Source of the DNA: Fimbriimonadaceae bacterium
Lineage (GTDB): Bacteria > Armatimonadota > Fimbriimonadia > Fimbriimonadales > Fimbriimonadaceae
DNA: 64,000 bases
Assembly: GCA_019638675.1 (NCBI GenBank)
Contig: JAHBTE010000001.1
Location: 2,450,605-2,514,604 of the forward strand
Direction of reading: 5' to 3'
The first letter of the stretch is position 1; every line of letters begins with the position of its first letter. The notes beneath the pieces are model-generated. The model saw only the letters and a list, made by a program, of their open reading frames with translations. It was not told the DNA's origin and ran no database searches. Positions 8,584 through 41,100 of the stretch are shown piece after piece. Position numbers and translations under genes: made by a program.

Positions 8584-8622
8584 AATTCCCTCCCCAATTC
8601 TGGGGAGGGTTGGGCGGGGTTA
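8584..8622 (+). repeat. Solo copy of the CTCCCC...GGGGAG palindromic repeat
   Basis: ATTCCCTCCCC-AATTCT-GGGGAGGG followed by TTGGGCGGGGTT. It is the same element as the copies at 16.68, 30.7, 34.6, 35.1, 35.75-36.0 and 36.4-36.6 kb. It lies between convergent genes, where its hairpin could also act as a weak terminator. Confidence 0.85.
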
Positions 8623-16563: not shown

Positions 16564-17884
16564 TGTTGATCTCCTCTACTACTCGTTCGGCGCTTTCGAG
16601 CGCACCTTCAATAAATCCCATCCAATCACACGCCCAGTCACCTGCGAAGTGAATCTTTCCATAAGGTTTGAAACGTCCTGACTCCCTCCCCAAATCTGGG
16701 GAGGGGCTGGGGAGGGGTTTATGTGAATAAGGCGCATTTCCAACTGGATAATAAGGAAACGCGCCGCCTGCATATTCATCTGAAACCCAATCGTGAACCG
16801 CACCAGCTGTAAAAGATTCTTGAGCCTCTGGATGCACCTGAGCAATTGACTTCAAAACCACATCAACTGGGCTGGATTGCTCCATGAGCTGAATCGCTTC
16901 TGCCCCGCAAACATAGACCCCGAGTGCATTAAGATTTCCGCGCCCGATTTCCCAAGTTTGCTGAAATGCAAGGTCACCCAACATCCGGCCTGTCCAGTTT
17001 TTATCGCGCCACCATGCGTTTTTAAACTGCAAAACGAGTTTTACAGCTCGTGCCATTTTTGCCGACGGGAGATGGAAAACCCACGAAAGATCGAACGAAA
17101 CAAAACTACCTTCTGGCGGTGCAAGAGAAATTTGAGATTCGACGTCGAGAACCTTTTCTACAGCGCTGGTAGGTAATGCCATAACAACTCGGTCAAAAAT
17201 ATGAGTTGAGCCGTTCCTTTCGATCACTTCTCCTTGATCAGAAACGTGTTGGATCGGCGAATCCAGCCTCACATCTTGTAATTTCGCCGCCATGCGTTCG
17301 CAAAGTTTTCCTCCCCCGCCAGCAATGCGGTAGAGGCTCATGTCCCCGTCTTCACGGTCAAGATAATGCGCGTAGCTTTCAAGCCATCCGTGCAAGCTGA
17401 CTTCGGAAGTGTCTTCACCTTCATCACTGCGCGTAAACGATTCCACCCACCAGCGACCTCGCACACTTTCACAAATTGAATCTAGCCAAGCCCCGAGAGG
17501 TTGATCCTCCCCTATTTCTTCTCCATTTTTGCGCTTGGCAATCAGGGATGCAGCCTCTTCATGAACCAAGTTAGCGTCCCGAGCCGCATCGGGCCAGACT
17601 TGATTCTCCGTCGCGAATTCGCCTTGATAAACCACCAACCCCGGCCATTGCGAGCTCTTTTCCGGAGCAACTCCGAACTCCCGGAGCAAACGAATCACCC
17701 GGTGATGATCTGCGTCAATCCATTCGCCGCCTGCCTCGTAGTAGCCATCGCCCATCTCGATGGTTTGCATTCGCCCGCCGACGCGGTCGCGTGCTTCAAA
17801 AACTGTGACTTGATGTCCGGCTTTTTCGAGAAGCATTGCGGCTCTCAGGCCCGCGATCCCGGCCCCTACAACCCCGACCTTCAA
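16550..17884 (-). CDS. FAD-dependent amine oxidase-like oxidoreductase
   Basis: A 444-aa flavoprotein. The N-terminal dinucleotide fold reads GVVGAGIAGLRAAMLLEKAGH and FEARDRVGGRM, and the C-terminal FAD motif is KIHFAGDWACDWMGFIEGALESA; both are typical of the monoamine oxidase/phytoene desaturase group. Between residues about 388 and 405 it contains KPLPSPSPDLGRESGRF, which is the translation of an inserted intergenic-type palindromic repeat (16681-16718) that keeps the frame. Related enzymes go almost directly into the VGRIHFAG motif. The ATG overlaps the stop of the upstream gene by 4 bases. Substrate is unknown; amines, or pathway intermediates of the neighbouring prenyltransferase, are possible. 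Confidence 0.88.
   Translation of the reverse strand: MKVGVVGAGIAGLRAAMLLEKAGHQVTVFEARDRVGGRMQTIEMGDGYYEAGGEWIDADHHRVIRLLREFGVAPEKSSQWPGLVVYQGEFATENQVWPDAARDANLVHEEAASLIAKRKNGEEIGEDQPLGAWLDSICESVRGRWWVESFTRSDEGEDTSEVSLHGWLESYAHYLDREDGDMSLYRIAGGGGKLCERMAAKLQDVRLDSPIQHVSDQGEVIERNGSTHIFDRVVMALPTSAVEKVLDVESQISLAPPEGSFVSFDLSWVFHLPSAKMARAVKLVLQFKNAWWRDKNWTGRMLGDLAFQQTWEIGRGNLNALGVYVCGAEAIQLMEQSSPVDVVLKSIAQVHPEAQESFTAGAVHDWVSDEYAGGAFPYYPVGNAPYSHKPLPSPSPDLGRESGRFKPYGKIHFAGDWACDWMGFIEGALESAERVVEEINNGSE
16681..16718 (-). repeat. Palindromic repeat inserted in frame in a coding sequence
   Basis: ACTCCCTCCCC-AAATCT-GGGGAGGGG followed by CTGGGGAGGGGTT is the same element as the intergenic copies elsewhere in the window. 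Here it lies inside the FAD oxidoreductase gene without breaking the frame. Confidence 0.85.
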
Positions 17885-29339: not shown

Positions 29340-30600
29340 GTTCGGGAGCGGCACTCACCGCAGGAACATCGGTGTTTTCACAAACTCCTGAATTCTCTGC
29401 TTCCAAAACTGCATTCAAACTCCGAATCGCCACTTCAATGTGTTTTTCTTCCGGCTCTTCGGTGGTGATGAGCTGAGTTGCCAGGCCTGGCTTGAGCAGA
29501 ATATTCACCCAGCGGGCATCCTTCATCTTGCCCGCCGCGCGAATCACTTCATAGCTGATTCCAGCGATGATTGGCATGATAATCAGCAGTTCCAGAGTCA
29601 AGCGGAACAACACGGCCGCCCCGCCCGTGATTTGGTAGGTGCCGAACGTTGGGTACCGCGGAATCCACACAGACATCAAAAAGCCGATGATCACCACTAT
29701 GATCGCAAAGTTTGTTCCGCAACGCGGGTGCAAGCGAGTCTGAGCCATGCAGTTAGCTGAGTTCAGTTCTTGCTCAGCTTCGATGGTGTTGATTGCTTTG
29801 TGTTCGGCTCCGTGGTACCGGAAGGTATCCAAAATCGCAGGTAACCGCCGGATGAGAGCCAGGTAACCAATAAACATGATCACCTTCAAACTTTCCGCGA
29901 CGAAGTTGGTGAAAACCCCTTGCATGTAAGTCGCTTTCGCCAATTCGCTCGGTTTGTAGCCGGTGACCCATTCAGCTGTACCTTCGGGAACGGCTTTGAA
30001 TAAAAAGAACCCGAATCCCAAGCTGAAAACTATCGCCACGCCAATCGCCAGCTTTTCGTTTGTGCTTAGCGCGTATTTGATCGGCTTCCAGAAAACAGTG
30101 AACAGCAAACATAGAACTGCCGCTACTGCTGCGACCATTGGAGCCAGCATCGTATTGGGGTCAAACTTTGCGCCACTCAGCACTGGGCTCCACTTGCCAA
30201 ACAACAGCGCGGCAATTACGCCGAGCACGAGAGTTGTGAGAGCAAGGTTGCGAAACTCCTTGGGAGTCGCCTTCGCCATCTCCTCGTTTTCAGCCGCGAC
30301 TCGCTCGCGATCTTCTTCCGCAACGTATCGCTCATCCAACTGCACAGAACTAGCGAAGTTCATCGCCCGCATGCCCAGGGCCATAGTATCAAGAAGTGCC
30401 AACGTTCCGCGGAGAAACGGCTTCTTTAAAAAGTCGAGTTTGCCGATCCAAGTTTTGGTGAGGGGTTCGGTTTTGACGATGATTTCGTTGTTCGGTGCGC
30501 GGCACGCCACCGCGTAATAGTTCGGCGAACGCATCATCACGCCTTCTGGCACCGCCATCCCTCCAAACTGCAAATACTCGGCCTGCGGTTCCTTCGACAT
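29332..30600 (-). CDS. DUF1385 (YqhQ-like) membrane protein
   Basis: A 422-aa multi-pass membrane protein of the DUF1385 family, function unknown. The family signature near the N terminus is FGGMAVPEGVMMRSPNYYAVACR (residues 12-34), followed by PFLRGTLALLDTMALGMRAMNFAS. A conserved block, FRYHGAEHKAINTIEAEQEL...RLHPRCGTNFA, lies near residues 258-295. The protein is longer than YqhQ (about 320 aa) because of an extra stretch with roughly three membrane helices at about residues 115-235. It stands alone on the minus strand. Confidence 0.85.
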   Translation of the reverse strand: MSKEPQAEYLQFGGMAVPEGVMMRSPNYYAVACRAPNNEIIVKTEPLTKTWIGKLDFLKKPFLRGTLALLDTMALGMRAMNFASSVQLDERYVAEEDRERVAAENEEMAKATPKEFRNLALTTLVLGVIAALLFGKWSPVLSGAKFDPNTMLAPMVAAVAAVLCLLFTVFWKPIKYALSTNEKLAIGVAIVFSLGFGFFLFKAVPEGTAEWVTGYKPSELAKATYMQGVFTNFVAESLKVIMFIGYLALIRRLPAILDTFRYHGAEHKAINTIEAEQELNSANCMAQTRLHPRCGTNFAIIVVIIGFLMSVWIPRYPTFGTYQITGGAAVLFRLTLELLIIMPIIAGISYEVIRAAGKMKDARWVNILLKPGLATQLITTEEPEEKHIEVAIRSLNAVLEAENSGVCENTDVPAVSAAPEPN

Positions 30601-30927
30601 GTGTTTACAGTGTACCTATCGGCACTTTCGCCTCCCGGCTCTATGCTGGGCGCGCAATTCCTTGCCAAGCTTTTGGGGTTACTCGCATTTATTCCCGCCC
30701 TGAAGATCGGGGAGGGTGGATGCGTCAGCAGACGGGAGGAGTTGAAAGCTTTAGCAGATACTGCCAACCCCTCTCTTTATCTCTCCCCAACCTTTGGGGA
30801 GAGAATCCCATGCCGAGATCCTTCAGACTCAGCAAACGTTGAGATTGCAAATTCCCTGCCGAAGCATGGAGAGGGTTGGTTGGGGTTGATCTCGCGAAAA
30901 CTGAGGAAGACCAATCATAATATTTGC
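30601..30927. other. Intergenic region with a repeat cluster
   Basis: The frame of the next gene is open through this stretch, but the bases are non-coding repeat (30691-30891), so I do not count it as protein. The first 90 bases hold no clear signal besides the divergent start of the DUF1385 gene. Confidence 0.6.
30691..30891. repeat. Cluster of three GC-rich palindromic repeats (two forward, one inverted)
   Basis: Forward copy at 30691-30743 (ATTCCCGCCCTGAAGATC... GGGGAGGGTGGATGCG...), inverted copy at about 30768-30808 (AACCCCTCT...CTCTCCCC..GGGGAGAG), and another forward copy at about 30850-30891. The forward-spacer-inverted arrangement is the same as at 35111-35226, so the pair acts as one composite unit. 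Confidence 0.8.
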
Positions 30928-31425
30928 GTGAGCATCGCGAGCTACGATATTATTCATACAGATTCAGGCACGGAGTTTCAACCGACAAAGTTAGAACTAC
31001 GGGTCTGGAAAAGCATAAGACAAATATTTGCTCTAATGGTAGTTCTTGGGTTCATTCTTGATATATACGTGTTCCGAAGACCCTATCCAGATTGGCTTTG
31101 GGGAAATCTGAAATATTGCTTTTATTTGGCACTTGTTTTCGCTCTTCATAAAGACTCGGAGCCAAAGCCGTTCATCATCGACCGCACTAACCAAACAATC
31201 ACTTACCGAGAAAACACTATCCCGTTCGATGATCTTCTTCACTTCACGGTCGAAGCCGCTACCTTCCGCGATAAAGTGGTGATGGTGACAAAAACTACAA
31301 GGATCGATCTGACAGGCGGGCTATCTACCAAGAAAGCGGAAAAGCTCCGCGATACTTTGGTTGAAGCGATCCCCTTCACCCTCCCCCGCATTGAGTTTCT
31401 CGAATCGAAGGTCGTAACAAATTAG
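30928..31425 (+). CDS. Two-TM PH-like small membrane protein (paralog family)
   Basis: 165 aa from the GTG at 30928 (VSIASYDIIHTDSGTEF). Two membrane helices (about residues 34-50 and 56-72), then FIIDRTNQTITYRENTIPFDDL, a strand-rich part and a last amphipathic helix (KKAEKLRDTLVEAIPF). The layout matches the genes at 7098, 7688, 31463, 32359, 32886 and 33418. The longer frame back to 30601 is repeat DNA. A CATAAT box ends 6 nt before the GTG, suggesting a leaderless mRNA. Function unknown. Confidence 0.7.
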   Translation: MSIASYDIIHTDSGTEFQPTKLELRVWKSIRQIFALMVVLGFILDIYVFRRPYPDWLWGNLKYCFYLALVFALHKDSEPKPFIIDRTNQTITYRENTIPFDDLLHFTVEAATFRDKVVMVTKTTRIDLTGGLSTKKAEKLRDTLVEAIPFTLPRIEFLESKVVTN

Positions 31426-31462
31426 AGCAACTCAGGGTGCCCCTTTCTCGTACAATGTAAAC

Positions 31463-31978
31463 GTGAAAGTCAGCGGCTACGAGGTTACTGAAACAAGTGA
31501 CGGACTGATTCTGCAAAAAAACAAGCCGAGTTACTTGCTGATAATAGCCACAGTCGCAATAATCGGGTTAATAATGTGGATACCCGTTTGGAATGGCAGA
31601 AAAACCTCCCAAGAAGCGTTATGGGATGCGCTGTTTTATATTGTGGGATTCGCCATAGTATTGCTACTATCTCGGCCGTGGCTCCGCAAAAAGCAAGTTC
31701 GAGTCAGCCTTGAAGAGCGAGCAATCTTCCTTAACGATCAAAAAGTTCCCTTCGAGGAAATTACTGCAATTAGCACAGAGCGTGCCTGGTTCTATCACGA
31801 TGTAACGGTCTGTACCCAAGACAAGCCAATTGTTATTCTCCCATGGGTCACTCAATACAACGGAACGAGACTATGCGAAATCATCTGCATACGACTCCCC
31901 GAAAAAGAATCTCTTCGACTCATGCCTTGGGGAGTCTCGACCTGGGCGGATTCCCAGCGTCAAACCCCGACTCAATAA
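31463..31978 (+). CDS. Two-TM PH-like small membrane protein (paralog family)
   Basis: 171 aa. N terminus MKVSGYEVTETSDGLIL resembles the start of its neighbours, then two membrane helices (about residues 27-43 and 53-70), VSLEERAIFLNDQKVPFEEI and a strand-rich end. Here the final helix is poorly conserved and the protein ends in a polar tail. Start is GTG, with TACAAT exactly 6 nt upstream, so the mRNA is probably leaderless. Function unknown; see the family finding. Confidence 0.7.
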   Translation: MKVSGYEVTETSDGLILQKNKPSYLLIIATVAIIGLIMWIPVWNGRKTSQEALWDALFYIVGFAIVLLLSRPWLRKKQVRVSLEERAIFLNDQKVPFEEITAISTERAWFYHDVTVCTQDKPIVILPWVTQYNGTRLCEIICIRLPEKESLRLMPWGVSTWADSQRQTPTQ

Positions 31979-32095
31979 ACTCTGTTTCTCACTTTTGTTA
32001 AGATTTGCCCCACACCTGGGAACTTCCCCCCTTTTAACACGTCATAATAGGCTAGGAAGCCCCCAAAAGGGCAATCCAAGGAGCACAACACATAA

Positions 32096-32293
32096 ATGGG
32101 TTCAGTCCATGATAAGTTGGAGCTCTCGGAGGACGAAGCATTTGCTCTTCTCACCCTGGCAATGACCAGCGAGATGGCACTTGATCCAGATTCCGAAAAA
32201 GCGGTTAAAAAGCTGGTTGAATACTGCAAGAAACATCAACGCAATCATAATCAACAGCCAGTTCTAGACTGCGAGCTCGTAGGAGCGGGGTAA
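32096..32293 (+). CDS. Small helical protein (65 aa), possibly TerB-like fragment
   Basis: Not firmly recognised. A short, charged, helical protein: KLELSEDEAFALLTLAMTSEMALDPDSEKAVKKLVEYCKKHQ. The 'LS..EA...L...A..AD......E...L' rhythm recalls the first helices of TerB-like domains, but it is too short for a full one. AAGGAG lies 14 nt before the ATG, rather far. The stop codon is in the loop of a terminator-like hairpin (32282-32303). Confidence 0.55.
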   Translation: MGSVHDKLELSEDEAFALLTLAMTSEMALDPDSEKAVKKLVEYCKKHQRNHNQQPVLDCELVGAG

Positions 32294-32313
32294 TCCCCGC
32301 TCCCAACTATTTT
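32282..32313 (+). terminator. Probable Rho-independent terminator
   Basis: 9-bp perfect stem (GGAGCGGGG/CCCCGCTCC) with a 4-nt loop that contains the stop codon of the 65-aa gene, followed by a weak T-run (CAACTATTTT). Confidence 0.7.
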
Positions 32314-32358
32314 AGAGGGGTGCTTTTTTGATACAATTATGTTTGAAGCATTAGTGAG

Positions 32359-32889
32359 ATGGAATACGGGAATTTTAATGTTATGATTTCTCCTGAGCGT
32401 GTAGAAATCCGCGAAAGAACTGGATGGAGAATCTTCTTCACAGGAATTCTCGCGCTATGCGTTTTCGGACAGATTTATCGAGTTCTCACAGATCCTCCCA
32501 CCCCTCAGCCAGGCAATATTAGTGGATATGTGCTTGAATATTTAAAACCTTTTATTTATATTGGGTTTGCATACGTACTTGGCTTCTTTCACCGCCCTCT
32601 ATTGATTGAGATCAATATTGCGAACAACGAGATCATTTATGAGGGGCGAAGTGTTCTTCCCCCGTCGCAACTCATGGTCACGCACAGGCAAGAAGCACTT
32701 TCCTCCCAGCTCATGATGCAACTTCCTGATGGTCATCTCCACACATTCACTTTCATGGGACGAAAAAAGGCGAAAAAGCTTTTAGATGCGCTGAATGAAG
32801 TTCTTCCCCCAGAAAAAGAACGTTGGAAAGAATTTCAACGAGAATTCAATCTTCGCCGAGTGGGACAGAGTGCTGAGACCATGTTATGA
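32359..32889 (+). CDS. Two-TM PH-like small membrane protein (paralog family)
   Basis: 176 aa. Two membrane helices (about residues 24-42 and 60-76), LLIEINIANNEIIYEGRSVLPPSQL, a strand-rich domain and a clear last helix (RKKAKKLLDALNEVLPPEKERW). A TACAAT box at 32332-32337 would put the transcription start about 15 nt before the ATG. It overlaps the next family member by 4 bp (ATGA), so the two are translationally coupled. Function unknown. Confidence 0.7.
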   Translation: MEYGNFNVMISPERVEIRERTGWRIFFTGILALCVFGQIYRVLTDPPTPQPGNISGYVLEYLKPFIYIGFAYVLGFFHRPLLIEINIANNEIIYEGRSVLPPSQLMVTHRQEALSSQLMMQLPDGHLHTFTFMGRKKAKKLLDALNEVLPPEKERWKEFQREFNLRRVGQSAETML

Positions 32890-33410
32890 GCACTTCAACA
32901 CTAGATAAAAATGCGCTTAAGCCTCTTACGGAAGAACTCGGCTTAGAATTTTTTCTTAACGATTTTACAGATTTGGTATTTGGTGCTTCCCAAAAAGCGA
33001 ATGCACTTTTTATTCGATCACTTTGGTTACTTCTACTGCTACGTTACACAATTCCAGCAATCGTCTCGATCTATCAGAATCAGCCTTATCTGACTACACT
33101 TCACTTTTCGTTCATCGACTTCTGTTGGCTGCTCATCGTATTAACCGCAACCTGCTACATTCGTCCTCACCACTCAATCATTACTCACGATGGGCTTTAT
33201 AAACCGTTCCCTAACGTCAAAGGTCAACGCATAATTGGAATTGGGATCGGACGCACTTGGTCTTGGCGGTATAGAGTAACTGTTCAGACTGAGCTACGCG
33301 AACATATACTGGTCGAATTTATTAATCGCAGATCAGCAGAACGACTTGAACAAATCATTCGCGAATACTTCGCGGCCATCAACCATCCCGCCGGAATCTC
33401 GTACAACTAA
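32886..33410 (+). CDS. Two-TM PH-like small membrane protein (paralog family)
   Basis: 174 aa, second gene of the coupled pair. Two membrane helices (about residues 45-63 and 78-95), a strand-rich domain with GIGIGRTWSWRYRVTVQTEL and the last helix RRSAERLEQIIREYFAAI. Its N-terminal 40 residues are soluble, unlike the other members. The next member follows after 7 bases. Function unknown. Confidence 0.7.
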   Translation: MSTSTLDKNALKPLTEELGLEFFLNDFTDLVFGASQKANALFIRSLWLLLLLRYTIPAIVSIYQNQPYLTTLHFSFIDFCWLLIVLTATCYIRPHHSIITHDGLYKPFPNVKGQRIIGIGIGRTWSWRYRVTVQTELREHILVEFINRRSAERLEQIIREYFAAINHPAGISYN

Positions 33411-33417
33411 TAAATCA

Positions 33418-33897
33418 ATGCTTTCAAAAGTCATTGCGAACCACAAAATATCTCAGACTCAACCCGATCTACTTCTGCGCTATATCCCTCAATTCAGATG
33501 GTTTATGATTTGGATTCTCTTCGGCCATGCCGCCGGCACGCTTGTGGCAGGCATGGCTCTCAACAAGCTATTTCCAAATATTATTTTTGCGATTCTCACC
33601 GCCAGCGTGGGTTTCATCCTGCTTCTGCAAAAGGTGGTTGAGATCAAGTTCTCGCCAAGCACCAACGAAGTCTTTGTGAACGGGGTTTTGCGGGGCGAGT
33701 GCGACAAGCTCATGCTATTAGAAGAAAAAGCTAGTCTGGGATCTAAGCTCAGCATCTTTACGACGGACGAACTCATCCACTCTGCAACTTACACCTCAAA
33801 AAAGCAGATCGCAGAACTCAAGGCGCTCATCGAAAGCTACCTTCCACCAATAGAAGAACGCATCGAAAATATGGGCGAGTGGCACGAGGCCAACTAG
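33418..33897 (+). CDS. Two-TM PH-like small membrane protein (paralog family)
   Basis: 159 aa from the ATG at 33418 (MLSKVIANHKIS); the frame is open further upstream but that part overlaps the previous gene. Two membrane helices (about residues 29-46 and 51-68), VEIKFSPSTNEVFVNGVLRGE, a strand-rich domain and the last helix KKQIAELKALIESYLPPIEE. Likely cotranscribed with the two genes before it. Function unknown. Confidence 0.7.
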   Translation: MLSKVIANHKISQTQPDLLLRYIPQFRWFMIWILFGHAAGTLVAGMALNKLFPNIIFAILTASVGFILLLQKVVEIKFSPSTNEVFVNGVLRGECDKLMLLEEKASLGSKLSIFTTDELIHSATYTSKKQIAELKALIESYLPPIEERIENMGEWHEAN

Positions 33898-34036
33898 CCA
33901 CCTTTACGAAATCCTTACGCCATTCCGCCGGATTCCAACACATTCCCCCACCCGCCAACGCGTAGAACTAAACACAGACGCGGCGGATGAGTTCACCCAC
34001 TTTCCACATCCGCCCGTCAAACCCAGGAATTAAGAT

Positions 34037-34513
34037 ATGGCACAACGCGAAGACTACCGAAATACTTCTCACACAGAACAACGCGAACAAAGCGGTTATC
34101 AACAAGCGGGCGGCCCAGATCACACCACTTTGGTTCCAGAAGAAGAAATCAACCCCCAACTCCGCAAGGATGATACAGAACCCGAGTACCAAGGCGACGA
34201 CCTTGACCCACGGCTTTACCCGCAGGATAACGAAATCAACCGACGGGCTCGCAATGAAGGCAATATGCCGGGCAACGAAGCCGAAGACCCCAACCAAAAG
34301 CGGAATCCTGATTCAACCGGAAACATGCCGGGGAATGAAGAACCCCCGACTTCTGAAGAAGGCCCGTGGAGCAACGACCAACCAGATTACGGCGAATTCC
34401 AACCTGACCGTCCGCACAGACCAGGCGAAGGTGAACAAAACCCGCTCCGGATGGGCGACGGTCAAAACCCTAAAAATCCCACTCCACAAGGCACAGTCAA
34501 CGAGTCTGAATAG
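34037..34513 (+). CDS. Hydrophilic, probably disordered protein (158 aa)
   Basis: Not recognised. Rich in Asp, Glu, Asn, Gln, Pro, Gly and Arg, with almost no hydrophobic residues, and a repeated GNMPGNE motif near residues 74 and 93. Such composition recalls stress-related hydrophilins, but no motif fixes a function. Frames on both strands are open here, yet this is the frame with a terminator directly after the stop (34535-34574) and a simple, hydrophilin-like composition; the competing plus-strand frame (33987-34541) is rich in Lys/Thr/Ser and looks less natural. No clear ribosome-binding site. Confidence 0.6.
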   Translation: MAQREDYRNTSHTEQREQSGYQQAGGPDHTTLVPEEEINPQLRKDDTEPEYQGDDLDPRLYPQDNEINRRARNEGNMPGNEAEDPNQKRNPDSTGNMPGNEEPPTSEEGPWSNDQPDYGEFQPDRPHRPGEGEQNPLRMGDGQNPKNPTPQGTVNESE

Positions 34514-34534
34514 GCTCGGGCTGAGCGCAAAAAT

Positions 34535-34574
34535 GCGGTGAGTCCTTCCCGCCCGAAGGACGAGCCGCTTTTTT
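34535..34574 (+). terminator. Rho-independent terminator after the hydrophilin-like gene
   Basis: Stem GCGG..TCCTTC/GAAGGA..CCGC with a 6-nt loop, followed by TTTTTT. Confidence 0.85.
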
Positions 34575-34614
34575 GCGCGCGCGATATATTTCCACTTCAA
34601 TGAATGCTGTTTTG

Positions 34615-34667
34615 ATTCCCGCCCCGAAGATCTGGGAGGGTGGATGCGCTAGCAGACAGGAGGGGTT
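34615..34667 (+). repeat. Palindromic repeat, 'GGATGCGC' variant, solo forward copy
   Basis: ATTCCCGCCCCGAAGATC, then TGGGAGGGTGGATGCGCTAG and CAGACAGGAGGGGTT. Nearly identical to 35111-35164, so it duplicates along with the ncRNA unit. Confidence 0.85.
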
Positions 34668-34682
34668 CATTCCTACCCGCAA

Positions 34683-34750
34683 AGATATTCACACTGTGTG
34701 GAAATCTTATTAGAATTTATCGACACAATTCGTCAATAACATCGTAGAAT
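34683..34750 (+). promoter_or_regulatory. Promoter and palindromic operator of ncRNA copy 1
   Basis: Imperfect palindrome AGATATTCACAC-TGTGTGGAAATCT at 34683-34707, then a TCGACA (-35-like, 34720-34725) and TAGAAT -10 (34745-34750). The same three elements, with the same 19-nt spacing between boxes, precede copy 2. A 25-bp palindrome just upstream of a promoter is a good place for a dimeric regulator. Confidence 0.6.
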
Positions 34751-34756
34751 ACAAAC

Positions 34757-35054
34757 GTGAAGCCAACCAATAGAAGGCGGAACAAAGGAAGACCTCACCT
34801 CTGAGAGAAACCGGATTCGGTATTCGTGCCGTTTCTATCAATCGGATGGTGAAGAATCCAAAATTAGGTAACGGCTTTTTAGCCGGAACCAAACAAAGCG
34901 TAGCAGAGAGACTTGTTCTCAAAAGAAGCAAAGGTTGCGATTTATCGTGGACTGGCGCGGATTGAACTGTTGCGAGAAACGAGGAGCGAGAAATTGCAAG
35001 TCGTTTCGCAAAATTGAGTAGTCCCTGCCGCTTGCGGCGGGGCTTGCTCTTTTT
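34757..35054 (+). ncRNA. Candidate structured ncRNA, tandem copy 1 (about 298 nt)
   Basis: A transcription unit without a convincing protein: TAGAAT -10, 298 nt, then a terminator (stem 35023-35030 with 35035-35042, followed by a T-run). It aligns along its full length with copy 2. Stems kept in both copies: TTGC+GAAACGA/TCGTTTC+GCAA (34976-34982 with 35001-35007), the hairpin CGGCT/AGCCG (copy 2 has AGACT/AGTCC, with a G-C to A-T swap in the middle), ACCG/CGGT (copy 2 has AATGC/GCATT) and the inner GCGA/TTGC. A possible long-range pair joins GAATCC with GGATT. It matches no RNA family I recognise (not RNase P, tmRNA, 6S or SRP). The 5' end also forms a leaderless GTG frame (MKPTNRRRN) of 15 codons. 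Confidence 0.6.
35021..35054 (+). terminator. Terminator of ncRNA copy 1
   Basis: 8-bp stem CCCTGCCG/CGGCGGGG (one G-T pair), loop CTTG, then CTTGCTCTTTTT. A second small hairpin (GCTCT/AGAGC) follows. Confidence 0.75.
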
Positions 35055-35110
35055 AGAGCGCAGCGATTTTGCTTATCTTCTTTATGTTTGTGAAGATGTG
35101 CGCACAACTC

Positions 35111-35258
35111 ATTCCCGCCCCGAAGATCGGGAAGGGTGGATGCGCTAGCAGACAGGAGGGGTTGAAGGTTCAAGCAGATGCTGCCAACCCCTCACTTAAT
35201 CTCTCCCCAAACTTTGGGGAGAGAATTCGGAAACCCGCTCCCCAGTATTGGGGAGGGA
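35111..35258. repeat. Composite palindromic repeat (forward, inverted, extra solo hairpin)
   Basis: Forward copy 35111-35164, spacer with GCAGATGCTGCC, inverted copy about 35186-35226 (AACCCCTCA...CTCTCCCC..GGGGAGAG), then a simple CTCCCC-AGTATT-GGGGAG at 35238-35255. Same composite layout as 30691-30808. Confidence 0.85.
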
Positions 35259-35287
35259 GATAAACACCGGCCTCGCATGGGGCTGCC

Positions 35288-35356
35288 GAGATATTCACAC
35301 TATGTGGAAATCTCAATAGAATCTTTAGACACAACTCGCTCATTCCGTCGTAGAAT
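35288..35356 (+). promoter_or_regulatory. Promoter and palindromic operator of ncRNA copy 2
   Basis: Palindrome GAGATATTCACAC-TATGTGGAAATCTC at 35288-35314, TAGACA at 35326-35331 and TAGAAT at 35351-35356. In the arms the outer pair changed from A-T to G-C relative to copy 1 while symmetry was kept. Confidence 0.6.
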
Positions 35357-35362
35357 ACAAGT

Positions 35363-35660
35363 GTGAAGCCAACGAATAGAAGGCAGATCAAGGAGGAAAT
35401 CTTCCATGAAAGGAAATGCAAATAGCATTCGTGCCGTTCGCACCAATCAGGGGATGAAGAATCCAAAGTTTGATAAAGACTCTTGTAGTCCGAATCAGCT
35501 AAGACGCGACAGAGAGACTCGTTCTCATATGAAGCAAGGCGGCGATAATAACGCAGGCTGAGTGGATTGAACTGTTGCGACGAAACGAGGAGCGAGCAAT
35601 CGCAATTCGTTTCACAAATTGAGTAGCGACCTCGCCGTTTTCGGCGGGGTTTGCTCATTT
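35363..35660 (+). ncRNA. Candidate structured ncRNA, tandem copy 2 (about 298 nt)
   Basis: Paralog of the RNA at 34757. Same promoter, same length to the terminator (stem 35630-35637 with 35642-35649), same conserved blocks: GTGAAGCCAACNAATAGAAGGC at the 5' end, ATTCGTGCCGTT, GAAGAATCCAAA, GAGAGACT, GATTGAACTGTTGCGA and GAAACGAGGAGCGAG. The best conserved blocks lie after the stop codon of the possible 51-codon frame (ATG 35405 region, AGGAGG upstream), which argues for RNA function. The alternative is that each unit also encodes a short peptide (IRAV...KNPK shared). Confidence 0.6.
35624..35660 (+). terminator. Terminator of ncRNA copy 2
   Basis: 8-bp stem CCTCGCCG/CGGCGGGG with a TTTT loop, followed by TTTGCTCATTT. 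The T-G pair has moved one position relative to copy 1, but the stem is kept. Confidence 0.75.
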
Positions 35661-35746
35661 ATTAGGTGCTTATTGTTCTACAAACCGAGCACTCTTATCA
35701 TTTCTTCCCCAAACTAAGAATTAAGAATTAGTAGCTATGTGCCCGA

Positions 35747-36012
35747 GTTCCCTCCCCAAGATTGGGGAGGGCAGGGCGGGGTTGACCTGCAAAGCTCAAC
35801 TCAATAGCAACCCACCTCTTAATCTCCTCCCAGACTTGGGAGGAGGACTCAATTCCAAATTCTGCTGGGATCAAGCTCTCATCTTTGCGAAAAGTTGAGA
35901 GCCGACGGGTTCCCTCCCCAAGATTGGGGAGGATTGGGCGGGGTTGACCTGCAAAGCTCGGTTAAGTAGCAACCCTCCTCTTAATCTCCTCCCATACTTG
36001 GGAGGAGAACTC
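35747..36012. repeat. Two tandem composite palindromic repeats
   Basis: Unit 1 at 35747-35853 and unit 2 at 35908-36012. Each has a forward palindrome (GTTCCCTCCCCAAGATT-GGGGAGG), GGGCGGGGTTGACCTGCAAA, a short spacer, and an inverted half (CAACC...CTCCTCCCA-ACTTGGGAGGAG). Unit 2 ends 30 bases before the DUF559 gene. Confidence 0.9.
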
Positions 36013-36042
36013 AACCAGCTAAGTGTCCGCTAAAATAAATTC

Positions 36043-36405
36043 ATGCGCCGGCCAGCTTCGGAAAAATCAAAATCCCACGCAAAGCATCTACGCAAATCTA
36101 TGACCAAGCCCGAGGTCTTCCTCTGGACAGAATTCCGCAAGTGGCGCGAACATGGCATCAATGTCCGCCGCCAAGTGCCAGTCGGCCACTATATTGTTGA
36201 TTTTGTACACCTCGATTCTCATCTTACGATCGAAGTCGATGGGAAAAGCCACGACGAATCCCGCGAGAATTATGACGCCGAACGCCAAGCCTATTTGGAA
36301 TCCCTTGGCTATCAAGTTCTGCGTGTTTCAAATGACGACGCCCTATTTAGAACTCAAGAAGTTGTCGAACATATTTGGAACGTCATTCAGAACTCTAAAT
36401 CTTGA
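36043..36405 (+). CDS. DUF559 (VSR-like) endonuclease-domain protein
   Basis: A 120-aa protein of the DUF559 family, which has the fold of very-short-patch-repair and other PD-(D/E)XK nucleases. Seen: TKPEVFLWTEFRKW, NVRRQVPVGHYIVDFVHLDSHLTIEVDGKSH (candidate catalytic Asp and Glu in IVDF and IEVDG), and ERQAYLESLGYQVLRVSNDD. This is a complete single-domain member. It is bracketed within 30 bp by composite palindromic repeats on both sides, which suggests that protein and repeats belong together. TAAAAT ends 6 nt before the ATG (leaderless pattern). Nuclease activity is inferred, not shown. Confidence 0.9.
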   Translation: MRRPASEKSKSHAKHLRKSMTKPEVFLWTEFRKWREHGINVRRQVPVGHYIVDFVHLDSHLTIEVDGKSHDESRENYDAERQAYLESLGYQVLRVSNDDALFRTQEVVEHIWNVIQNSKS

Positions 36406-36419
36406 TCTGTGTTTTTTGG

Positions 36420-36618
36420 GTTCCCTCCCCAGGGCGGGGTTGACCTGCAAAGCTCGGCTTAATAGCAACCCACCTCTTCATCTCCTCCCATACTTGGGAG
36501 GAGAACTCAATCCCAAAATCCATCTAATACGAGCCTTCAATTTGAAAAAATGTTATGTCTCTCCGAGTTCCCTCCCCAAGCTTGGGGAAGGTGGATGCGA
36601 CAGCGGGCAGGAGGAGTT
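36420..36618. repeat. Truncated composite repeat plus a solo copy
   Basis: 36420-36512: the forward half lacks its palindrome centre (GTTCCCTCCCCAGGGCGGGGTTGACC), while spacer and inverted half are intact. 36567-36618: a solo forward copy of the GGATGCG variant ending in GGAGGAGTT. The internal deletion removes exactly the piece from one palindrome arm to the tail. Confidence 0.85.
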
Positions 36619-36668
36619 AAGTAAAATTGCCTTGTCTCATTTGTGACACCTAGTGTTATACTAACTAC

Positions 36669-37652
36669 ATGAAGGCATGGCATATTATTGGCCTTATAGT
36701 CTTGGGTGCTGTTATCCGCTCAGCGTTTATCCCACCTGAGCCTGACCCTTATCCATCTTCCGTGCCTAGCCTAAGCACAGTCCCACCCATAGATCTATAT
36801 TCGAGCACCGCAACTAACGATAACTCCCAAGCCAATGAAGTCTCAAGTGAAACCGTTCCAGATAATACTGATATTGAGCTTGAAATCAACACGGATTCTG
36901 AAGACCTTCCTTCTGATGAGCCATCTATAACTTTTGATACTGCTCCCGAACCGTCTGCTTATCAGCAATTTGGTAAACCCCGAACTGCAATTCTCCGAGA
37001 AGCTAGAAGAGTTTCTGAGGAACTGATCAATACCAAATTTTATTCGCCTTTAATCCTAACCGATGGAAAGGTTGCTTTTTTACTTTCCGAAGCTCGATCT
37101 GAAATTTCTGCTAACTCGCTTTGGGTATGTTCACGGTTGGAATTTAAGAATGGTACATGGATTGCATCAAAAACAGAAGTATCAGAAAACTCCGAAGATT
37201 TAAGTGCTCTGGCCAAAGGCATTAGTTCACCTGAAAGCGAACTAAGCGTCGAACCTGCTATTTTAACGGGTTTAGCAGAAGCTTACTTACCAACTCGCTC
37301 ACGTGCGGATTCTAACCTAGAGAGTTATCGATCAAGCTATAGCTCGTATTCTGCTGATCAGTTAAAGGATGTCTACGCAGAGAGACTAAAAGAAATCACT
37401 GAATCCTACGAAGAGCGTTTGGCAGAACTTTCAGCAAGTTTGAGCCGATCCTCCTATGGTTCATCTTCTAGTTATCGCTCGTCATCAGACTATCATGTTA
37501 GTTGGGAGTACAAACCTCATGTTGCTGAGAATGGAAGTTATTATGGAGAGATTTCAGACATCACCTATCGACCGAAAACGGTTCATGTAGGCGGCTACTT
37601 CCGACGGGATGGTACTTATGTTCGAGGCCATTATAGAAGTAAGGGCCGGTAG
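36669..37652 (+). CDS. Anchored Ser-rich hypothetical protein (327 aa)
   Basis: Not recognised. N-terminal membrane anchor (WHIIGLIVLGAVIRSAF, residues 4-20), a Pro/Ser/Thr/Asp-rich linker (about 21-100), a globular part, a charged coiled-coil-like helix (LKDVYAERLKEITESYEERLAELS, near 230-255) and a Ser/Tyr-rich stretch. The end reads VHVGGYFRRDGTYVRGHYRSKGR, a short basic tail motif found at the end of many exported proteins. TATACT ends 6 nt before the ATG (leaderless pattern). Codon use and AT content are slightly different from the housekeeping genes. Confidence 0.65.
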   Translation: MKAWHIIGLIVLGAVIRSAFIPPEPDPYPSSVPSLSTVPPIDLYSSTATNDNSQANEVSSETVPDNTDIELEINTDSEDLPSDEPSITFDTAPEPSAYQQFGKPRTAILREARRVSEELINTKFYSPLILTDGKVAFLLSEARSEISANSLWVCSRLEFKNGTWIASKTEVSENSEDLSALAKGISSPESELSVEPAILTGLAEAYLPTRSRADSNLESYRSSYSSYSADQLKDVYAERLKEITESYEERLAELSASLSRSSYGSSSSYRSSSDYHVSWEYKPHVAENGSYYGEISDITYRPKTVHVGGYFRRDGTYVRGHYRSKGR

Positions 37653-37659
37653 TAATCGG

Positions 37660-38121
37660 TTAGAGCAAGTCCGCTAATGTCCAAACTTTGTCCTCTGCAA
37701 CATTAACTCCCTCTTCAAACTTGAAAAAGGTTCTGACTGTATTTGCCTCATAATTTGTGCTCCTTACTTCTTTAGGTGCTCCTCGCACACTGTCCCATTT
37801 CGTTAGAACGATCTTGGGCTCAGCTGGTACGGTGACCACCGGTGGAAATTGAAACTCCATAGACTTGAGTTCATGATATATTGTTTTACTCAGGGTTAAC
37901 CAATCTTCGAAATTGCGACTTTTATCATCTGTAACGTAATAGAGATATGTATGCCATTCATCGTAAATGTCTACCCAATAGTATGGCCGTGTTTTTGGTT
38001 CTTTTCTATCACCTGGATTTAGAAAACTGCCAACATACTGATTATTGAAAGACAAATGTTGGATAAGCTGATTTAAACAGGGGATGATCAATTCAGGTGA
38101 AATGAAATCTTTTACTGACAT
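37660..38121 (-). CDS. Hypothetical cytoplasmic protein (153 aa)
   Basis: Not recognised. No signal or membrane segment; aromatic-rich (YYWVDIYDEWHTYLYYV near residues 47-63). It starts inside the last codons of nrdA (10-bp overlap, ATGTCAGTAA), so it is translated from the nrdA message. Such coupling hints at a link to nucleotide metabolism, but nothing in the protein supports a specific role. Confidence 0.6.
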   Translation of the reverse strand: MSVKDFISPELIIPCLNQLIQHLSFNNQYVGSFLNPGDRKEPKTRPYYWVDIYDEWHTYLYYVTDDKSRNFEDWLTLSKTIYHELKSMEFQFPPVVTVPAEPKIVLTKWDSVRGAPKEVRSTNYEANTVRTFFKFEEGVNVAEDKVWTLADLL

Positions 38122-41100
38122 GCCTCACACTCCTCGCCGTTCATCATCGCCTGAATCGAGCAAGCCGCGCGTTCGGCTTCGGTGAACTCACGAACTGGCG
38201 CAGAAACAACCGCTTCCCCACCAACAACCTCTGCCTTTTTGACCGCGACGGTGGCCTTTTCGATATTAGAAGCCCCCAGCGTGCGGAGGTAGTAGGTGGT
38301 TTTGAGGCCGACGTGCCAAGCCCGGCGGTACATGTGCGAAAGAGTCTTCAAATCCGCTTGACCAAGGAACAGGTTCAGCGACTGCGACTGGTCAATCCAC
38401 TTTTGACGGCGCGCGCCCGCATCAATGATGTATTCGTACGAGATTCCGAACGCCGTGGTGTACTTGGCCTTGAGGGCATCAGGAATTCCATCCACATCTT
38501 TGAGCTCGCCATCGAAGTATTTGACCTGGTCAATAAGTTCGGGAGTCCATAGGCCACGCGCCTTGAGGTCTTCCACCATGTAGGGGTTGACCACCACAAA
38601 GTCGCCGCTGAGGTTGCTCTTGACGTACATATTTTTGTACAGAGGCTCGATGCAGGGGCTGGTGCCCATGATGTTGGCGATGGTCGCCGTGGGGGCGATA
38701 GCCAGCACGTTGCTGTTGCGCATGCCTTGGCTCTTTATCTTCTCGCGCAGTTCCGCCCAATCGAGGCGTCCGCCGCGTGGAACTTCCACCGGAACCCCTC
38801 GTTCGCGTTCCAGCAGTTCCAGCGTATCTTGCGGCATCAGGCCACGATCCCACTTGGAACCTTTAAACGTGGAATAGCTTCCCCGCTCGGCGGCGAGGTC
38901 GGAAGACGCTTCGTAGGCGTAAAACGCAATCGCTTCCATCATTTCGTCGTTGAACTCCACCGCGTCTTCGCTGGCGAAGTCGAGACCCTTTTTATAGAGA
39001 GCGTAGTGCAAGCCCATCACACCCAGGCCGACCGGTCGGTGGCGGGTGTTACTGGTTTTTGCCGCTTCGGTTGGGTAGAAGTTGATGTCAATCACGTTAT
39101 CCAGCGCACGCACGGCTACGCGGATGGTTTCGCGCAGTTTGGTGTGGTCTATTTCGCCGGTTGGGGTGAGGTGGTTGTCGATCAGAATCGAACCCAGGTT
39201 GCAGACCGCAGTTTCATCCGCACTGGTGTTGAGGGTGATTTCCGTGCAGAGGTTGCTACTGTGAATGACCCCGACGTGATCCTGCGGCGAGCGCAAGTTG
39301 CACGGGTCTTTGAACGTGATCCAAGGATGCCCGGTTTCGAACAGCATCTTGAGCATGGATTTCCACAGGTCAAGGGCTTCTACTTCTCGACCCCAGATTT
39401 CGCCCCGCTTGGCCATTGCTTCGTACTCGACGTATTTTTCTTCAAACGCCTTGCCGTACAGGTCGTGTAGGTCTTTGACTTCGTTGGCGCGGAACAGAGT
39501 CCAGTTTTCGCGGGCTTCCATGCGCTTCATAAACAAGTCGGGAATCCAGTTCGCGGTGTTCATGTCGTGGGTGCGGCGGCGTTCGTCGCCCGTGTTGCGG
39601 CGGAGTTCCAGGAAGTCGTAAACGTCGTTGTGCCAGCTTTCTAGGTAAGCACAGCCAGAACCGGCGCGCTTTCCGCCTTGGTTAACGGCGACCAGCTGGT
39701 CGTTGTGCATTTTGAGGAACGGAATGATGCCTTGGCTTTCACCGTTGGTGCCTTGAATGTAGCCACCGGTTCCGCGAACGCTAGTCCAGCTTCCGCCGAG
39801 TCCGCCCGCCCACTTGCTGAGGAACGCGTTTTCGGCGATTCCTCGGTACATGATGCTTTCGATGGTGTCATCCACCTTGTACAGGTAGCAACTGCTGAGT
39901 TGGCTGCGCAGGGTTCCGCTGTTGAACAGGGTCGGGGTGCTGCTGCAGAACCGTCGGCTTTTGTAGAGGCTGTACAGTTCAATCGCCCGATCTTCGCGGT
40001 TGGGTTCATCTTTGAACAGTCCCATTGCCACCCGCATCCAAAAGATTTGCGGAGTTTCGAGCCGCACCGACTTCTTGCCAGTTTTATCGGTGATAAGGTA
40101 GCGGTCGTAAAGGGTTTGCACGCCGAGGAAGTCGAAATCCAGGTCGGCGGTCGGGTCGAGCGCATTGGCAAGCTTGGCGAGGTCGTAACCCTTGAGGTCG
40201 GGCGATAGGCGATCGATTTCTACAGCGCGGTTGATGTACCGAGTGAATGCCTGAGCGTGGAACTGCTTGAGCTTTTCGATTCCATCGCGCACGATGTCCC
40301 AACCCAGAACTTCTTCGTAGATGTAGGTGAGGAGAATCCGCGCGGCGAAGAACCGGAAATCCGCATCCTTTTCCATGAGCGTTTTCGCGTTCATCACGAT
40401 GAGCTTGCGGAGGTCGGCGGCGGGGATATCGGCGGTGATGGAGCGGCGCAGTTCGACTTCGATGCGGTCGCGCGGCATATCGATGCTCAAACCGATGAGC
40501 GCGAAATCGATGCGGCGGCGGAGGTCTTCGCCATCCCAGAACTGGCTGTGGCCCGCTTCATCCAAAACCGAAACCATCTCGAACTGGTCGCTGGCGGCGG
40601 CAACCGATTGTTCGTTCAGGCGCATCATCGCCCGTTGCGCGCGGTAAGTGATGTACGATTCTGCAACCTTGAAGTGACCGCCGCGCATGAGTTCTTCTTG
40701 TACGAGGTCTTGGATCGTTTCGATACCGACGTATGCGTTTCCGGCGCTGAGAACCTTTTGACTGACTGCTTCGGCGATTTCTACCGCTGGTTCGCTGTTG
40801 AGGCCAACGCTGAGGAACGATTTTCGGACAGCGATTTCAATCTTGTCTTGATTCCACGGCACAACCTGGTTGTTGCGGCGGATCATACGGACGTTAGAAA
40901 CTGGGTTTTCCGATTTGGGCAATCGGCTGCGCTGGCTAACGAGAGATTTGGCGACTTCAAATGCGCCAGCTTCGATAAGAACGGCTTCGATGAGAACCGA
41001 TAGGTCGTATTCGGTGATTGAAAGTCGGTCGCCACCGAGAGTGCCGAGCCGGTCGGTCACATCGCGCGCAATTTTCACAGCGAAGTTTCGGTTTTCGGTT

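Follow-up and report, generated by a model that had tools for sequence, protein, structure and literature searches.

DUF559 genes and BoxC/PIT/TM triplex repeats as candidate partners across many bacterial phyla

Why should a small nuclease-like gene stand between inverted copies of a repeat? The question is raised by a DUF559 gene in a stretch of 64,000 nucleotides (the window) from a Fimbriimonadaceae bacterium (Armatimonadota; GenBank assembly GCA_019638675.1, contig JAHBTE010000001.1, positions 2,450,605 to 2,514,604). The DUF559 family is common and has no assigned role. The gene is a complete open reading frame of 120 aa at 36043-36405 on the forward strand, and its product matched Pfam PF04480 with E=2.1e-31 and a bit score of 108.4, against a curated cut-off of 20.6. 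A preliminary description of this DNA had reported that forward-spacer-inverted repeat units lie no more than about 30 bp from the complete gene on either side. This was borne out, as one paired unit ends at 36014 upstream and another begins at 36402 downstream; three such units, 109 bp each, surround the gene. The repeat-framed DUF559 gene is thus confirmed as real. The analysis presented here suggests that the gene and the repeat are the two parts of a previously unrecognised system spread across many bacterial phyla.

What kind of repeat is it? Each motif runs in the order pyrimidine arm, loop, purine arm, short linker and purine box. The box is the purine arm reversed, not complemented, with A or T where the arm has A; for example, arm GAGAGGAGGGGG is followed by box GGGGGTGGAGAG, and arm GGAGGAAGGGGG by box GGGGGATGGAGG. 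This relation fits the antiparallel purine-motif triplex rule (G*G.C, A*A.T, T*A.T). The repeat had been described as a composite palindrome, and its inverted hairpins were indeed found, but the fuller unit is a hairpin plus a mirror-repeat third strand. In the test of the mirror rule, the detector fixed the G positions only and left the A positions free; the third-strand base opposite A in distinct motifs was A in 134 cases, T in 75, G in 11 and C in 2. For arms that differ from their own mirror image, mirror reading recovered 175 motifs (61 distinct arms) vs. 65 by direct reading. Because the arms vary across lineages while the mirror relation persists, the relation between arm and box is covariation and not one conserved sequence, and covariation over 61 distinct asymmetric arms provides independent evolutionary evidence of selection on a three-stranded fold. 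Judged by sequence, the repeats are members of the BoxC/PIT/TM intrastrand purine-motif triplex family, with which they share the Y-R-R hairpin, the mirror R box obeying G*G.C and A/T*A.T, and inverted pairs of type A and type B, which correspond to the paired units here. For the E. coli motif, the triplex has been demonstrated in vitro by circular dichroism and nuclear magnetic resonance (PMC4666352). The gene and the units around it are as follows.

36043..36405, + strand: DUF559 gene, predicted PD-(D/E)XK / Vsr-like endonuclease, 120 aa (PF04480; AlphaFold model matches)
35906..36014, + strand: paired unit just 5' of the DUF559 gene, two triplex motifs, left (+) and right (-)
35912-35943, + strand: its left motif, CCCTCCCC-AAGATT-GGGGAGGA, box GGGCGGGG
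35973-36008, - strand: its right motif, TCTCCTCCC-AAGTAT-GGGAGGAGA-TTA-AGAGGAGGG, a perfect mirror
36402..36510, + strand: paired unit just 3' of the DUF559 gene, left hairpin truncated (36419-36439)
36469-36504, - strand: its right triplex motif, TCTCCTCCC-AAGTAT-GGGAGGAGA-TGA-AGAGGTGGG
35744..35852, + strand: additional paired unit, motif (+) 35750-35781, motif (-) 35811-35845

Is the association peculiar to this locus? We picked 80 DUF559 loci from named genomes by protein sequence only, 72 of which had sufficient flank; they span Proteobacteria, Melainabacteria, Chloroflexi, Verrucomicrobia, Omnitrophota, Binatia, Actinobacteria and others. The results revealed a motif within 430 bp of the DUF559 gene at 67 of the 72 loci, and at 47 of them a motif (+) upstream was combined with a motif (-) downstream. 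Control windows at least 1 kb away at the same loci contained a motif in 9 of 392 cases (Fisher p ~2e-64), and shuffled flanks in 0 of 144. The possibility, raised in the preliminary description, that DUF559 genes usually lie away from repeats clearly does not hold. Triplex motifs also adjoin the gene for Ngo0050 (3HRL), a DUF559 protein of N. gonorrhoeae, and number 9 of the TM repeats in Table 1 of Holder et al. (1351204-1351239) lies directly 3' of ycjD, the E. coli DUF559 gene. The controls bear on a further explanation, namely an artefact of composition in which GC-rich palindromes gather by small genes as transcription terminators. The motifs are intergenic hairpins, as this explanation expects, but the low counts in control windows and shuffles speak against it, a mirror third strand plays no part in termination, and earlier studies saw no terminator activity (as reported in PMC4666352); we give it next to no chance.

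Does the type of motif follow the type of nuclease? At the 71 loci with both ends, 44% of own pairs had identical arms vs. 5% of cross-locus pairs, and 25% vs. <1% had identical hairpin loops. Among DUF559 genes within one genome, the match between upstream and downstream motifs was likewise locus-specific (median score 57 vs. 20, permutation p=5e-5), and genome composition is therefore no explanation of the end matching. Protein identity was related to arm similarity with a Mantel r of 0.308, the maximum of 2000 permutations being 0.241. The correlation of repeat type with DUF559 subtype that the preliminary description had proposed to look for was thus found, by the Mantel test across taxa and by permutation within a genome. 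The genome of the window (G000, 2.85 Mb in three contigs), whose DUF559 genes were also to be counted, has four, all flanked by inverted hairpins. Loci L002 and L003 carry hairpins of the CCTCCCC/GGGGAGG type, the same as in the window, whereas L004, whose gene belongs to a different DUF559 subtype, has CCCCTCTCC/GGAGAGGGG hairpins and differs in this from L001-L003.

Do gene and motifs behave as a discrete unit? Copies at unrelated sites in a Legionella metagenome-assembled genome (L135, L175) and a copy in another gammaproteobacterium of another genus (L126) were 83-84% identical over ~500 bp. Their flanks differ, but they have in common terminal inverted repeats that extend ~24 bp past the motif (AGTATAAGCTGCCATCGGAGTTAG-TCCTTCTCCC...). 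Terminal inverted repeats thus bound a discrete unit, as in insertion sequences (IS elements) and miniature inverted-repeat transposable elements, which also have gene-less derivatives; the difference is that no DDE or HUH transposase and no target-site duplication was seen here. Between hrpB and mrcB of E. coli, an inverted motif pair is absent in UTI89-type strains, and one hairpin is retained in an O26 strain. In Xanthomonas, a DUF559 gene lies between hppD and hmgA in 16 of 20 species, intact in 15; where it is missing, one species (G086) shows a single-hairpin scar and three show nothing. In addition, the site of a single dispersed Xanthomonas motif is cleanly empty in G087. Because each hairpin is palindromic, the two ends of a unit are also direct repeats, and slippage between them accounts for a one-hairpin scar. 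The empty sites that had been proposed as a check were therefore found in E. coli and Xanthomonas, but those of the G000 elements, sought in other species of the genus, could not be read since the flanks were too rearranged. The ycjD locus of E. coli was rejected as a clean empty site because ycjD alternates there with the eefRABCD operon. Between sapF and fabI (L054, L090), ycjD was present in 3333 of 5375 genomes by region cover, the eefRABCD efflux operon being found otherwise, and a motif copy adjoins ycjD.

Are motifs more numerous where the gene is present? The 15 Xanthomonas species with an intact gene have one full-length copy each and 20-145 motifs; 13 motifs were counted in the species whose gene is broken, and 0, 0, 3 and 88 (the last being G086) in those with no gene. 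A Mann-Whitney test of these counts, made with no correction for ancestry, gave p=0.003. In the same order as the window genome, outside one family (f2), motifs were found in 17 of 29 genomes with a DUF559 gene and in 0 of 18 without, as counted by pattern searches of two motif types in genomes that are not independent samples, and with the caveat that assemblies break at repeats, so that DUF559 genes may be missing from drafts. These numbers, as well as the matching of types, bear on the view that the motifs serve as target sites or points of assembly, the gene having been inserted or captured between pre-existing repeats that spread otherwise. The window gene is indeed flanked by two complete paired units instead of by a single left and a single right motif, and repeats are more numerous than genes. 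However, this view does not lead one to expect that motif sequence follows DUF559 subtype within one genome and across taxa, nor the contrast between 0/18 and 17/29, and we consider it decidedly improbable.

Could the repeats be moved by a transposase of another kind? The preliminary description had likened the locus to repetitive extragenic palindromic (REP) sequences and bacterial interspersed mosaic elements (BIMEs) mobilised by RAYT. The layout of one gene and many repeats was recovered in Xanthomonas, but the repeats are not REPs and no RAYT takes part. An ordinary REP/RAYT system, with the repeats moved by a Y1 (HUH) transposase and DUF559 a bystander, would agree with the Y1_Tnp genes present in G000, in many relatives and in all f2 genomes that have motifs but no DUF559 gene. 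Nevertheless, among Y1_Tnp (RAYT-type) genes of the window's relatives, 3 of 20 had a motif within 630 bp; in G002, G004 and G005, motifs and DUF559 occur in the absence of Y1; and six genomes with Y1 and without DUF559 have no motifs. No GTAG/CGTC head was conserved beside the motifs examined, the Xanthomonas units beginning with AGCCCC. Membership of REP/RAYT was rejected on the Y1 counts and on the several motif-bearing genomes without Y1, and such a system is a highly improbable explanation. The likeness to REP/RAYT (TnpA_REP, REPtron; PMC8266576) lies elsewhere: a low-copy nuclease gene is bracketed by the repeat in both orientations, many cognate repeats are dispersed as singles, inverted pairs (as in Xanthomonas and the window) and tandem clusters, and protein type is coupled to repeat type. 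Unlike RAYT, the DUF559 enzyme is PD-(D/E)XK/Vsr-like and not HUH/Y1, and its repeat has a triplex box in place of the GTAG head.

What might the protein do? The AlphaFold model of the window protein (pLDDT 90) matched in Foldseek 3HRL (Ngo0050), 3R3P (the catalytic domain of I-Bth0305I, probability 1.00) and 1VSR (Vsr), which are the closest folds to this model. D53, E64, D66, H70 and R81 are invariant; the profile score above cut-off and the predicted Vsr/PD-(D/E)XK fold, in which acidic and His residues are conserved, place the protein in the family. The likeness to the homing endonuclease I-Bth0305I is one of fold only; DUF559 has no intron, and its partner is a dispersed repeat. VsrA, a DUF559 protein of Caulobacter, provokes the SOS response and DNA damage in vivo, and a role in mismatch repair was proposed there (PMC12907096). 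Because the predicted fold matches and VsrA damages DNA in vivo, nuclease activity of DUF559 is likely. PADLOC gave no more than weak matches, to large defence proteins. DUF559 could also be a housekeeping or repair nuclease that resolves triplexes or hairpins, with genes near motifs favoured via regulation or protection and the repeats spreading otherwise; the fold, the effects of VsrA and the persistence of repeats without a DUF559 gene in several lineages agree with this. But such a nuclease has no need of its own gene between inverted cognate motifs with matching loops and arms, and the terminal inverted repeats common to copies at different sites would be unaccounted for, so that we think this explanation unlikely. 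As to the proteins themselves, some DUF559 domains lie in long open frames of ~470-1300 codons (among L007, L008, L012, L016 and L150/L194), the motif-framed unit at L150 is in frame within a larger coding region, and several DUF559 proteins have tails encoded by the motif itself.

We favour an explanation in which the folded motif is recognised by DUF559 and owes its spread to this nuclease, and the comparisons above render this fairly probable. DUF559 is probably the dedicated partner nuclease of BoxC/PIT/TM repeats, and the repeat would both bound a minimal mobile unit and serve as the substrate that is recognised. A complete unit would consist of triplex motif (+), DUF559 gene and triplex motif (-), ~0.5 kb in all, and gene-less paired motifs and singles would be its non-autonomous derivatives, as REPINs and REPs are to the RAYT locus. 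The sequences themselves establish the association, the covariation of arm and box, the matching of the two ends and of subtypes, the all-or-none occurrence of units and the deletion scar; the catalytic and movement steps, including cleavage and mobility, we infer as follows. First, an exposed strand, most likely at the replication fork, would let the motif fold into a hairpin, whose purine arm would bind the mirror box as third strand. Second, the nuclease would recognise the folded motif and nick or cut at the hairpin base. Third, the unit would be moved or duplicated by repair, by strand slippage or by copying that starts at the exposed end, and deletion between two hairpins would leave one.

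Several observations weigh against this explanation. No target-site duplication was visible at the empty sites of hrpB-mrcB, hppD-hmgA and G087, no strand-transferase was seen, and deletion could account for part of the empty sites in E. coli and Xanthomonas. The Xanthomonas gene is fixed at one locus and is therefore not itself a frequent traveller, and the motif counts in that genus share ancestry. The E. coli triplex was shown in vitro, not in vivo (PMC4666352). In addition, the f2 genomes G041 (complete), G047, G055 and G060 have many motifs and no DUF559 gene, and motif persistence thus does not require the gene; mobilisation there in trans or by another enzyme is possible. Xanthomonas G086 retains its motifs although it lacks the gene, and the repeat is found in many E. 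coli strains that have no ycjD. The expectation that genomes without DUF559 lack the repeat consequently held among the relatives of the same order outside f2 but failed in these three cases, and the counter-case foreseen in the preliminary description, a repeat common in related genomes without the gene, was partly realised, G041 being complete. In f2, all of G041, G043, G047, G055 and G060, with many motifs and no DUF559 match, have a Y1_Tnp of 250-300 aa; in G041, G047, G055 and G060 its genes are not adjacent to a motif.

Where else does the repeat occur in the window? Copies or halves were recovered at all the sites reported earlier (8588, 16684, 30691-30889, 34615, 35111-35258 and 36566-36618). 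The detector, built with its thresholds for this analysis, scores the hairpin plus the mirror box; it found 8 motifs at a score of at least 6 and 6 at a score of at least 8 in the 64-kb window, and 0 in ten block-shuffled copies, which preserved two-base blocks and not exact dinucleotide counts. An Rfam scan of 30000-40000 gave no match.

36566..36618, + strand: single left-type motif with long linker, CCTCCCCAAGCTTGGGGAAGG ... CAGGAGGAGTT, family D2
35111..35224, + strand: paired unit, left motif with long linker at 35111-35163
35188-35224, - strand: its right motif, TCTCTCCCC-AAAGTTT-GGGGAGAGA-TTA-AGTGAGGGG
35238..35257, no strand assigned: lone hairpin CTCCCCAGTATTGGGGAGGG that lacks a third-strand box, perhaps a deletion scar, family D5
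34615..34667, + strand: single motif with long linker, family D2
30691..30804, + strand: paired unit, left motif with long linker; a degenerate left motif follows at ~30850-30889
30768-30804, - strand: its right motif, TCTCTCCCC-AAAGGTT-GGGGAGAGA-TAA-AGAGAGGGG
16684..16717, + strand: single motif, CCCTCCCC-AAATCT-GGGGAGGG-GCTG-GGGAGGGG, a perfect mirror
8588..8619, + strand: single motif, CCCTCCCC-AATTCT-GGGGAGGG-TT-GGGCGGGG

Other features of the motifs were also noted. Among 49 distinct stem mismatches, T.G wobbles were the commonest (22), and some C.A and G.A also occurred; this is what drift in a stem would produce, and Vsr-like T:G mismatch recognition in the stem is not claimed. A G.A mismatch (CCCTCGCCCC/GGGGAGAGGG) recurs in several lineages (L054, L009, L013, L030 and others). 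Evenly spaced tandem arrays resembling BIME clusters were found in G014 (854429-854565, 51 bp), G017 (183801-184197, 121 bp), G047 (C216, ~105 bp) and Xanthomonas G071 (1070635-1070966, ~149 bp). In G006, a one-contig genome of the window genus, the strand of all 87 pattern matches of two motif types follows GC skew: minus-strand motifs occupy the positive-skew regions (0-1.06 Mb and 2.71-2.87 Mb) and plus-strand motifs the negative-skew region (1.21-2.56 Mb). G000 leans the same way (24/32), and Xanthomonas G071 shows no such bias by eye. The strand bias in the window genus suggests a link to replication direction. Within the window, an intergenic stretch of ~330-370 bp is duplicated at 34683-35050 and 35289-35660, 606 bp apart and 73-100% identical in blocks; it has a promoter-like start, a GC-rich hairpin near its end and no Rfam match, and is possibly an undescribed small RNA gene.

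What would the pairing mean for the repeats and the protein family? The E. coli repeats have been known since the 1990s as BoxC, then PIT, then TM(_ECO) (Bachellier 1999; Hoyne and Maher 2000, 2002; PMC4666352). Holder et al. 2015 counted 23 copies in E. coli MG1655 and related motifs in >260 genomes, observed raised genome instability around them and never found mobility genes beside them, leaving the repeats without known function or mobility enzyme (PMC4666352). What is added here is a partner gene family with subtype matching. The open-access literature on DUF559 or ycjD yielded no link to triplex or palindromic repeats, subscription papers and preprints being outside the search. The DUF559-repeat system may explain the spread of this decades-old orphan family, and the pairing gives each side a testable partner. 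We incline slightly towards a broader conclusion, that this is a new class of minimal mobile system across bacteria, in which a single Vsr-like (PD-(D/E)XK) nuclease would recognise the triplex of its own element ends, be the source of the BoxC/PIT/TM repeats of E. coli, Xanthomonas, Neisseria, cyanobacteria and many others, and act as a biological reader of intramolecular triplex DNA. Should the nuclease indeed read the triplex, triplex DNA would have a natural enzyme in DUF559, and the invasion of bacterial genomes by short repeats would have a third route beside those of RAYT and IS transposases.
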